Assembly (NCBI RefSeq): GCF_003610555.1
Contig: NZ_RAPQ01000008.1
Span: forward strand, 1,542,490 to 1,606,489
Direction of reading: 5' to 3'
Length of the DNA: 64,000 nucleotides
From: Marinifilum flexuosum
Lineage (GTDB): Bacteria; Bacteroidota; Bacteroidia; Bacteroidales; Marinifilaceae
In this document: positions 26,951-33,420 of the stretch, piece by piece
Position numbering within the stretch: the first letter of the stretch is position 1
How the letters are laid out: the number at the start of each line of letters is the position of its first letter
The notes under the pieces: generated by a model
Databases searched by the model: none
Told to the model about the DNA's origin: nothing
What the model saw: the letters and a program-made list of their open reading frames with translations, nothing else
Program-made: the position numbers and the translations under genes

Positions 26951-26956
26951 TTTATG

Positions 26957-26992
26957 CCTCATTCCACTCCCAATGAATGACTAGGGTGAGGT
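26957..26992. repeat. Degenerate palindromic repeat, left outer copy beside the DUF559 gene
   Basis: CCTCATTCCACTCCC ... AGGGTGAGGT: the two ends match the family seen at 27012-27058 and 27530-27630, but the centre has decayed. It overlaps TGCCTCAT at 26955-26962, which is the inverted partner of ATGAGGCA at 27638-27645. Confidence 0.7.
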
Positions 26993-27011
26993 ATTTGATG
27001 GAAAAGGAAAG

Positions 27012-27058
27012 ACCTCATCCCCAACCCCTTCTCCTTAAGGAGAGGGTTAGGGTGAGGT
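27012..27058. repeat. Intact 47-bp palindromic repeat left of the DUF559 gene
   Basis: Begins ACCTCATCCCCAACCCC, has the inner palindrome CTCCTTAAGGAG and ends GGGTTAGGGTGAGGT. It is a REP-like element ending 12 bp before the 3' end of the DUF559 gene. The same half-sequences recur at 27530-27630. Confidence 0.85.
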
Positions 27059-27070
27059 GAGAAAAAATAT

Positions 27071-27460
27071 TTACAAAGAATCCATATTATTAATAAATTC
27101 CTCCAGACGCCTTAAAGCTCCCTTAATATCACAATCTATTTCTTCATTCGTAAACCTAATTACTTGGACACCCAAATATCTAAGTTCAGCAGTTCTTCCT
27201 TCATCATATTCTTGATTCTCACTTGTGTTGTGAATTTTCCCATCAAGTTCGATTATCAATTTTAATTCATGACAGTAGAAATCGGCTATAAATATATCTA
27301 TGGGGTGTTGTCTGCGAAACTTTAATCCTTTGAATCTTCTATTTCTTATGTATTCCCAAAGGATTTTTTCTGTATCAGTCATGTTTTTTCTGAGTTCTTT
27401 TGCTCTTTTATGAATCTCAGGAGGGGCATTGTAAAACAAACATTCCTTATAGTCAACCAT
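27071..27460 (-). CDS. DUF559 protein, Vsr/restriction-endonuclease-like fold
   Basis: 129 residues. Family signatures: ELRKNMTDTEKILWEYIRNRRFKGLKFRRQHPI, then IFIADFYCHELKLIIELDGKIH and LGVQVIRFTNEEI. The D...E-L-D arrangement is the acidic site of a Vsr-like PD-(D/E)XK nuclease fold; biochemical function for DUF559 proteins is not settled. It is a single-gene unit packed between three copies of a palindromic repeat family, with matching 8-bp inverted ends outside them. It reads against both neighbours. Confidence 0.88.
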   Translation of the reverse strand: MVDYKECLFYNAPPEIHKRAKELRKNMTDTEKILWEYIRNRRFKGLKFRRQHPIDIFIADFYCHELKLIIELDGKIHNTSENQEYDEGRTAELRYLGVQVIRFTNEEIDCDIKGALRRLEEFINNMDSL

Positions 27461-27529
27461 GTTGTAGTAAGTTAGGTATAGAAAATTAATGATAATTATT
27501 GAATTTTGTTACTCATTTTTTTGATTAAT

Positions 27530-27630
27530 ACCTCATCCCCCAACCCCTTCTCCTCGAGGAGAAGGGGAGTACACTGCAAATCCTTGGCAGTTCCAGTTCC
27601 CTCTCCTTAAGGAGAGGGTTAGGGTGAGGT
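27530..27630. repeat. Composite 101-bp palindromic repeat upstream of the DUF559 gene
   Basis: The left half (ACCTCATCCCCCAACCCC plus CTCCTCGAGGAG hairpin) and right half (CTCCTTAAGGAG hairpin plus GGGTTAGGGTGAGGT) are the two ends of the 27012-27058 element. They are separated by about 30 bp of unrelated sequence, so the unit looks like two REPs in inverted orientation (REPIN-like). Confidence 0.85.
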
Positions 27631-27692
27631 ATTTCGCATGAGGCAATCATCCAATTTATCACTATCTTACACCTACCTTTAATACCATTTAT

Positions 27693-33119: not shown

Positions 33120-33420
33120 ACTCACCTCATCCCCAAGTTCCAGACAATAAGGGGAGTGTTCTTAAATGGTAGTAAATATTCCAAAATATTAATAGGTTCT
33201 TGTAAATCAGACTGAAAGTCTGGTTTAATTTAGCCAGAAGCAACGCCTCTGGGTGTTAAGCTATTTTTGAATACGTCCTGAAAGGACAACTTAATTTTAA
33301 ACTGTCCTTTCAGGACGCATTTTCCTTAATGAAACTACCCAAGGCGTTGCCTTGAGGCTGAAATAATCTGCCACTTTGTGGCGATATCTTGAAAAATCAT
33401 TGAATTTGAACTAAAACAAC
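33120..33420. repeat. Cluster of inverted repeats between the S41 and malic enzyme genes
   Basis: It starts with a decayed copy of the DUF559-associated repeat (CACCTCATCCCCAAG ... AAGGGGAGTG, about 33123-33160). Then come AGACTGAAAGTCT (about 33209-33221), GCAACGCC with its inverted partner GGCGTTGC (about 33240 and 33342), the pair CGTCCTGAAAGGACA (33274-33288) / TGTCCTTTCAGGACG (33303-33317), and CCACTTTGTGG (about 33372-33382). The nested order suggests one large fold of REP type. The remaining 220 bp to the malic enzyme gene show nothing further. Confidence 0.7.

Follow-up and report, generated by a model that had tools for sequence, protein, structure and literature searches.

The DUF559 nuclease gene of Marinifilum flexuosum and the composite palindromes that surround it probably constitute one two-part selfish system in which the nuclease serves its own repeat family as a dedicated partner, a reading to which we assign a probability of about 60%. 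On the best reading of our analyses, such a system would operate like RAYT/REPIN with another enzyme, without itself being a member of that group. The argument draws on an association between DUF559 genes and flanking repeats, a gene-specific pairing of the two, a link between repeat numbers and the presence of the gene, purifying selection on the nuclease, and units residing in frame within housekeeping genes. On a wider proposition our judgement is evenly balanced, namely that DUF559 nucleases are the mobility enzymes of the orphan triplex-type palindromic repeats of bacteria. Nuclease and cognate palindrome would then make up a separate class of mobile element, one that occurs in Bacteroidota, Cyanobacteriota and E. 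coli at the least and can establish itself in frame in essential genes. Within the portions of the non-subscription literature that were searched, we recognised no paper on a link between DUF559/YcjD and repeats or on the biochemistry of such a link.

The DUF559 gene and its surrounding repeats

The DNA analysed is a 64,000-nucleotide stretch (contig NZ_RAPQ01000008.1, positions 1,542,490 to 1,606,489), here called the window, and the features on which the argument depends are listed below by window position.

26954..26992, unstranded: decayed copy reduced to its tails, containing TGCCTCAT (from sequence; counterpart in genome G001, ATACCTCATTCC...AGGGTGAGGT)
27012..27058, unstranded: collapsed 47-bp copy consisting of left tail, single hairpin and right tail, with the spacer missing (families D1, D2)
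27071..27460, minus strand: DUF559 nuclease gene, 129 aa (PF04480, 124.7 bits; AlphaFold2 model; dN/dS)
27530..27630, unstranded: full composite repeat, 101 bp, made up of tail ACCTCATCCC, hairpin 1, spacer hairpin, hairpin 2 and inverted tail GGGTGAGGT (sequence, ssDNA fold)
27544..27567, unstranded: hairpin 1, CCCCTTCTCCTCGAGGAGAAGGGG (inverted-repeat pair I5)
27573..27591, unstranded: small central inverted repeat ACTGC...GCAGT in the spacer (sequence, ssDNA fold)
27599..27618, unstranded: hairpin 2, CCCTCTCCTTAAGGAGAGGG (inverted-repeat pair I6)
33124..33160, unstranded: decayed stand-alone copy with no DUF559 gene (from sequence)

The first-pass annotation had described the gene as bracketed by palindromic copies and had reported a further, decayed copy lacking a DUF559 gene. 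Both descriptions hold: the full composite lies to the right of the gene, the collapsed and decayed copies lie to its left, and the stand-alone copy is found at 33124-33160. The neighbours of the gene we take, from sequence recognition, to be yidC and an amidohydrolase-like gene. The full composite begins with the tail ACCTCATCCCCC and ends with the inverted tail TTAGGGTGAGGT, and its two palindromes are both perfect, over 24 nt in hairpin 1 and 20 nt in hairpin 2. As single-stranded DNA, positions 27530-27634 are predicted to adopt a branched fold in which the outer tails pair (-25.7 kcal/mol, z -4.74). The repeats are no chance match, CCCTCTCCTTAAGGAGAGGG occurring twice in the window with up to three mismatches where 0.01 occurrences are expected and none of 100 shuffles yields two. 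Hairpin 2 together with the TTAGGGTGAGGT that follows it displays the TM triplex layout discussed below, including the TTA loop, with stems of 8 nt instead of 9 nt. No Rfam gathering score was reached by the window repeats. A sub-threshold match to the Rfam whalefall-1 RNA was seen at 27597-27631 (22.2 bits against a cut-off of 37, E 0.0038), and the whalefall-1 family may itself include repeats of the window's type.

The encoded protein exceeds the curated cut-off of PF04480 (20.6 bits); its only other Pfam match, to PF18741, falls below the cut-off of that family, and PF01797, the Y1 HUH transposase family, is unmatched. The AlphaFold2 model (pLDDT 84.8, pTM 0.80) finds a structural match in 3HRL, an endonuclease-like protein (E 2e-7, with a sequence relation at E 1.4e-16), and another in the catalytic domain of I-Bth0305I (3r3p_B; probability 1.00, E 1.4e-3, target TM-score 0.75). 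As modelled, the protein resembles the catalytic-domain fold of the latter enzyme, an EDxHD homing endonuclease, and the accessible text of an earlier study reports that Vsr is detected by a YcjD profile at E 1e-5 (PMC1189080). Invariant residues of the family include E31, D60 and E71, which, judging from the fold, are probably catalytic. In PADLOC, the window protein gave a match to mREase_II at E 4.6e-5 and YcjD one to Hhe at E 0.039. Purifying selection acts on the nuclease, also where it lies inside LeuRS: dN/dS is 0.26 between the window gene and the Marinifilum breve copy and 0.07-0.30 in nine of ten DUF559 pairs, including pairs within LeuRS, with one pair saturated. Among viral contigs, 21 stretches fit one of two peptide patterns, and a relative was encoded in none of them.

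Variation at the yidC-amidohydrolase site

The first-pass annotation had also placed the ends of a mobile unit at a pair of 8-bp inverted repeats and had envisaged its clean insertion as a 0.7-kb element. The octamers TGCCTCAT (26955-26962) and ATGAGGCA (27638-27645) are literally present, but they are unconserved as element ends, differing at the same site in other genomes, and were ruled out as a unit boundary. At the yidC-amidohydrolase site G001 lacks a DUF559 gene, and the left sequence there reads TATACCTCATTCC; judged by this counterpart, TGCCTCAT resembles a repeat tail (ACCTCAT) altered by point mutation. ATGAGGCA is situated beyond the right tail; it is found also in G001, and the bases at this position differ in M. 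breve and G002. The ends that do recur are the composite tails ACCTCATCCC...GGGTGAGGT, not the 8-mers.

The site was compared in the same-genus genomes G001-G004, in M. breve (L094) and in G011. None of the four genomes G001-G004 has a plainly empty site, and a clean 0.7-kb insertion was discarded as a candidate: G001 holds a decayed composite, G002 a composite containing other repeats, and G004 a short remnant at a contig edge, in a locus without yidC. In M. breve the DUF559 gene is preceded by two composites and followed by three. In G003 (L186), window-family composites bracket an ORF that by eye appears methyltransferase-like and unrelated, with no DUF559 gene. For the stand-alone composite L003, a clean empty site was likewise not found among G001-G003, G003 having the composite and G001 and G002 other repeats instead. 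Between L003 on the one hand and L267 and L268 on the other, the repeat families held by one intergenic stretch differ from species to species within a genus. At the three polymorphic sites read by eye (yidC, L003 and the E. coli tkt-ypfG interval), the alternative alleles differ by replacement and no target-site duplication was seen; what these sites exhibit in place of clean insertion is the exchange of intergenic DNA.

Association of DUF559 genes with flanking repeats

The DUF559-repeat association is general. In the flank test, the 500 bp on either side of a DUF559 domain were aligned locally, with a threshold score of 16. The 131 loci came from relatives, the phylum sample and the named-genome scan; after removal of L054 and L055, which gave no tblastn match, and of nine loci with flanks too short, 120 were testable, mostly from Bacteroidota. 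The sampled loci are not random, because those taken from genome searches, in Cyanobacteriota as well, are the best-scoring matches of each search. The flanks share a repeat at 79 of the 120 DUF559 loci, compared with 5 of 402 positions drawn at random from those loci, and 41 loci fall below the threshold. The window's own locus, at 17.5, is only just above it because the left copies have decayed. A gene-versus-gene comparison was made in 50 loci of at least 11 kb each, in which a score of at least 20 was reached by 31 of 50 DUF559 genes as against none of 81 small ORFs and 9 of 198 among all other ORFs of at least 100 aa. For Cyanobacteriota, 27 of 32 loci were long enough to test, the other five being too short, and 17 of the 27 reach a score of 16 versus none of 27 distal controls. 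Of the genomes sampled, 222 of 392 from Bacteroidota and 136 of 194 from Cyanobacteriota contain the family. The expectation set out in the first-pass annotation, that DUF559 genes should lie closer to repeats than other genes do, is thus strongly borne out in two phyla.

Cognate pairing and copy number

The pairing of gene and repeat is gene-specific. The pairwise analysis covered 125 loci after removal of four duplicates and counted a repeat as shared at a score of at least 20; pairs with homologous surroundings, defined by a BLAST match of at least 150 nt more than 650 bp from the domain, were excluded, and some shared sites may escape this exclusion because many loci are only 3 kb long. 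The fraction of pairs with a common repeat was 0/74 below 30% DUF559 identity or where no BLAST match was obtained, 5/1160 at 30-40% protein identity, 69/3322 at 40-50%, 232/1999 at 50-60%, 330/811 at 60-70%, 133/164 at 70-80%, 17/17 at 80-90% and 1/1 above 90%. Control windows 1 kb away gave 0 of 1528 pairs, the controls below 60% identity being an 8% sample of pairs. In 24 of 38 comparisons, the flank of a gene was more similar to that of its nearest relative in another genome than to that of a paralog in its own; 6 comparisons went the other way and 8 were ties. The genome to which the window belongs (G000) contains three DUF559 genes with three repeat families of similar layout and different sequence, namely ACCTCATCCCC...GGGTGAGGT in the window, ACCCCAAACCCC...GGGGATTTAGGGG at L007 and ACATCCCCCTGTATCCCCC...GGGGAGTGTT at L008, and flank similarity among the three genes (10.0, 16.5 and 12.5) is near background.

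Repeat numbers are also linked to the cognate gene. Matches to the window composite number 21, 11 and 36 in G000, G011 and G025, all of which carry it, and 8, 8, 8, 7, 4, 1, 1 and fifteen times 0 in 22 family members that lack it; these are counts of matches and not of elements, and palindromes can match both strands. G015 has eight composite matches and no DUF559 gene. Orphan repeats evidently persist when the gene is missing, because genomes lacking the cognate gene still hold matches. The analogy to RAYT transposases and REP elements drawn in the first-pass annotation finds support in the covariation of repeat sharing with protein identity, although the 8-bp boundary attached to it fails.

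E. coli ycjD and the TM(ECO)/PIT repeats

The accessible text of a 2015 survey describes the TM(ECO)/PIT repeat by the pattern CCCTCNCCC-N3-6-GGGNGAGGG-N3-GGGNGAGGG, with one mismatch allowed, and counts 23 repeats in MG1655 and 3610 in 262 proteobacterial genomes (PMC4666352). The same text gives 29 copies for strain 55989 and one for IHE3034, states that in inverted pairs a type A repeat is always joined with a type B repeat, reports an in vitro demonstration of the E. coli TM triplex, and relates that its authors had never found mobility genes near these repeats (PMC4666352).

The DUF559 gene of E. coli is ycjD. In MG1655, a TM copy downstream of ycjD fits the published pattern exactly, and a second copy, decayed and inverted, overlaps the 3' end of the gene; in GIMC1405, both copies at ycjD are exact and inverted, with the loops TTA and TTG. 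An exact TM repeat lies beside the gene in four of eight ycjD-positive loci (L165, L170, L172 and L173, in L170 twice and inverted), and the other four (L174-L177) gave no TM match to the exact pattern with zero mismatches allowed. The gene is present in 3364 of 5426 E. coli genomes at 80% query coverage. In 60 records sampled evenly down the ranking, the median number of TM places, uncorrected for ancestry, is 21 (13-28, n=37) in ycjD-positive strains, ycjD's own place included, versus 4 (1-21, n=23) in ycjD-negative strains, one of which has 21. According to the accessible text of one report, ycjD occurs in phylogroups A, B1 and C as well as in ST69 and ST182, its place being taken elsewhere by the eef efflux operon (PMC12817139). 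Because ycjD follows phylogroup, the strains are not independent and the correlation with TM number is confounded by ancestry. The ycjD/eef site was considered as an empty-site test and rejected, because its alternative allele carries the efflux operon and the site is a replacement, not an empty one. At another intergenic site, between tkt and ypfG (L198-L202 compared with L171), the alleles hold either a TM repeat or a REP/BIME-like array.

In-frame units inside host genes

At least 38 matches lie in open frames of at least 800 aa (38 among the 150 matches listed for the phylum sample). By Pfam and NCBIfam together, the in-frame hosts among the matches read are leucyl-tRNA synthetase (leuS), methionine synthase (metH), UvrC, HsdR, IspE and PriA, with units at the host end in PurL/PurQ glutamine amidotransferase and HydE; a DNA methylase is a further in-frame host by Pfam only. 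The flank test reached 16 in 2 of 11 leuS and metH units (L162 and L075), and because most fail this test the ends of in-frame units were judged by stems and by eye. For 21 in-frame loci hand-picked from those read, 28 of the 42 flanks contained a perfect stem of at least 7 within 200 bp, compared with 11 of 82 control stretches, and these flank stems are mostly GC-rich. One small genome assigned to Gastranaerophilales (G558) holds three DUF559 units (L233-L235), at ispE, hydE and priA, each in frame with its host gene and placed within it or at its end, as well as a fourth, weak match in a long frame.

In LeuRS, the unit occupies a loop of the editing domain. Among the 30 Flavobacteriaceae sequences nearest to L072, this loop measures 16 aa in 17, 20-24 aa in 6 and 35-37 aa in 2, and in the remaining 5 it carries a DUF559 unit of 148-169 aa. 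Across L203-L232, the loop (from NWIG[KR]S-GA to TTRPDT) also contains peptides of the SEAKQSH- and HSELDSES-type that look like translated repeats of other families, and because of these the loop may be a general in-frame trap for repeats. The DUF559 tree, although poorly resolved, contains a clade uniting leuS, metH and purL units (98/89), a clade of metH units alone (99/95) and a clade of hsdR units (100/99). It was built from 114 of 125 rows, those shorter than 75 aa or containing a stop symbol having been dropped, among them L006 of the window, which is absent because its stretch ended in a stop codon.

Proposed mechanism and alternative explanations

We infer recognition of the repeat, cleavage and copying, with insertion taking the form of replacement. 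The nuclease would recognise its own palindrome as a hairpin, cruciform or triplex when the strands open, and would nick or cut at repeats or at target DNA. Repair would then copy a repeat, or a whole unit of repeat, gene and repeat, into the break, at the expense of the sequence previously present; copying by repair is the simplest reading because the alternative alleles differ by replacement. Repeats without a gene could be carried along in trans, and units would land mostly between genes, with the capacity to settle in frame inside them.

Several other explanations must be set against this one. The nuclease might be a house-keeping partner that trims or resolves repeat hairpins and does not spread them, its adjacency to the repeats reflecting joint inheritance. 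Specific pairing and purifying selection would fit such a role, and the collapsed copies exemplified at 27012-27058 resemble trimmed hairpins, in line with the palindrome effect treated in the accessible text of the 2015 survey (PMC4666352). We nonetheless hold this to be unlikely, since trimming alone leaves the units in leuS, metH, uvrC, priA and others unexplained, and repeat numbers are higher where the gene is present, whereas a trimming enzyme should lower them. The DUF559 gene might instead be cargo lying between two composites that are moved by another enzyme, for example a Y1 (IS200/RAYT) transposase, much as composites at the yidC site of G003 enclose an unrelated gene. Of 20 DUF559-bearing genomes checked, 19 contain Y1_Tnp genes, with seven matches in G000, and their absence could therefore not serve as proof against this idea. 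What makes it a distinctly poor candidate is that G032, where two DUF559 units have matching repeats on their flanks, gave no Y1_Tnp match, that all Y1_Tnp places in G000 lie more than 6 kb from matches to the window repeat (the nearest at 6.2 kb), and that cargo should not own a repeat family that tracks its protein sequence.

Two further readings would dispense with a dedicated enzyme. Recombination hot-spots might gather repeats and mobile genes with no functional link between them, and repeat-rich intergenic stretches are indeed replaced wholesale between species and between E. coli strains; the gene-specific pairing and the failure of all 81 small ORFs in the same loci to score 20 or more render such hitch-hiking highly improbable. 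A reading of the palindromes as ordinary terminators of transcription or as small RNAs is scarcely credible: they are GC-rich hairpins adjoining genes, but the intact copy extends over 101 bp as a composite whose tails are inverted, related units lie in frame inside genes, and no Rfam gathering score was attained, even the whalefall-1 match falling short.

Significance and comparison with known systems

If a dedicated nuclease does partner these palindromes, it would explain the spread of the PIT/TM repeats, which have hitherto been without a partner enzyme, would provide a function for DUF559, a family that has so far had none assigned, and would extend the RAYT/REPIN idea to a second type of enzyme. 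The DUF559 nuclease may thus be the missing enzyme that spreads a partnerless repeat class, and the idea is testable in E. coli through ycjD.

RAYT genes lie between copies of their own repeat, and RAYT and repeat covary. The DUF559 systems are alike in that the partner gene sits between its own repeats, the repeat type follows the partner type, and an inverted pair of palindromes forms a short composite, as found in the window. They differ in the enzyme, a Vsr/EDxHD-like PD-(D/E)XK nuclease rather than an HUH tyrosine transposase, and in possessing in-frame units inside genes. Their repeats also number in the tens (21, 11 and 36 matches) and not in the hundreds, REPs being described in the accessible text of one study as usually exceeding 100 copies per genome (PMC2817692). 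With the EDxHD/Vsr-like homing endonuclease I-Bth0305I, DUF559 shares the modelled catalytic-domain fold, the logic of a selfish nuclease and the placement of units in conserved housekeeping genes. Unlike homing endonucleases, however, DUF559 units are bounded by palindromes and also occur as a free gene between genes, and neither an intron nor an intein was recognised in the DUF559 cases read.

Rickettsia palindromic elements are palindromes that lie in frame and are translated inside genes, a property shared by the DUF559 units, which differ in carrying a nuclease gene; Rickettsia palindromic elements are not known to carry one. MITEs are short elements with terminal inverted repeats and stand-alone copies. 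The window repeats are similarly short, with inverted ends and stand-alone copies, and depart from MITEs in having no target-site duplication at the three sites compared and in having a nuclease, not a transposase, as partner. The PIT/TM(ECO) repeats, which have been studied for triplex structure and genome instability, have a layout of C-stem, loop, G-stem, 3-nt loop and G-stem (PMC4666352) that hairpin 2 of the window with its following tail resembles, the TTA loop included. They likewise form inverted pairs of unequal halves, and in some E. coli strains exact copies adjoin ycjD. The window-family stems measure 8 or 10 nt and those of TM 9 nt, and whereas the PIT/TM repeats were described with no nearby mobility gene, it is the DUF559 nuclease that we propose here as their partner.
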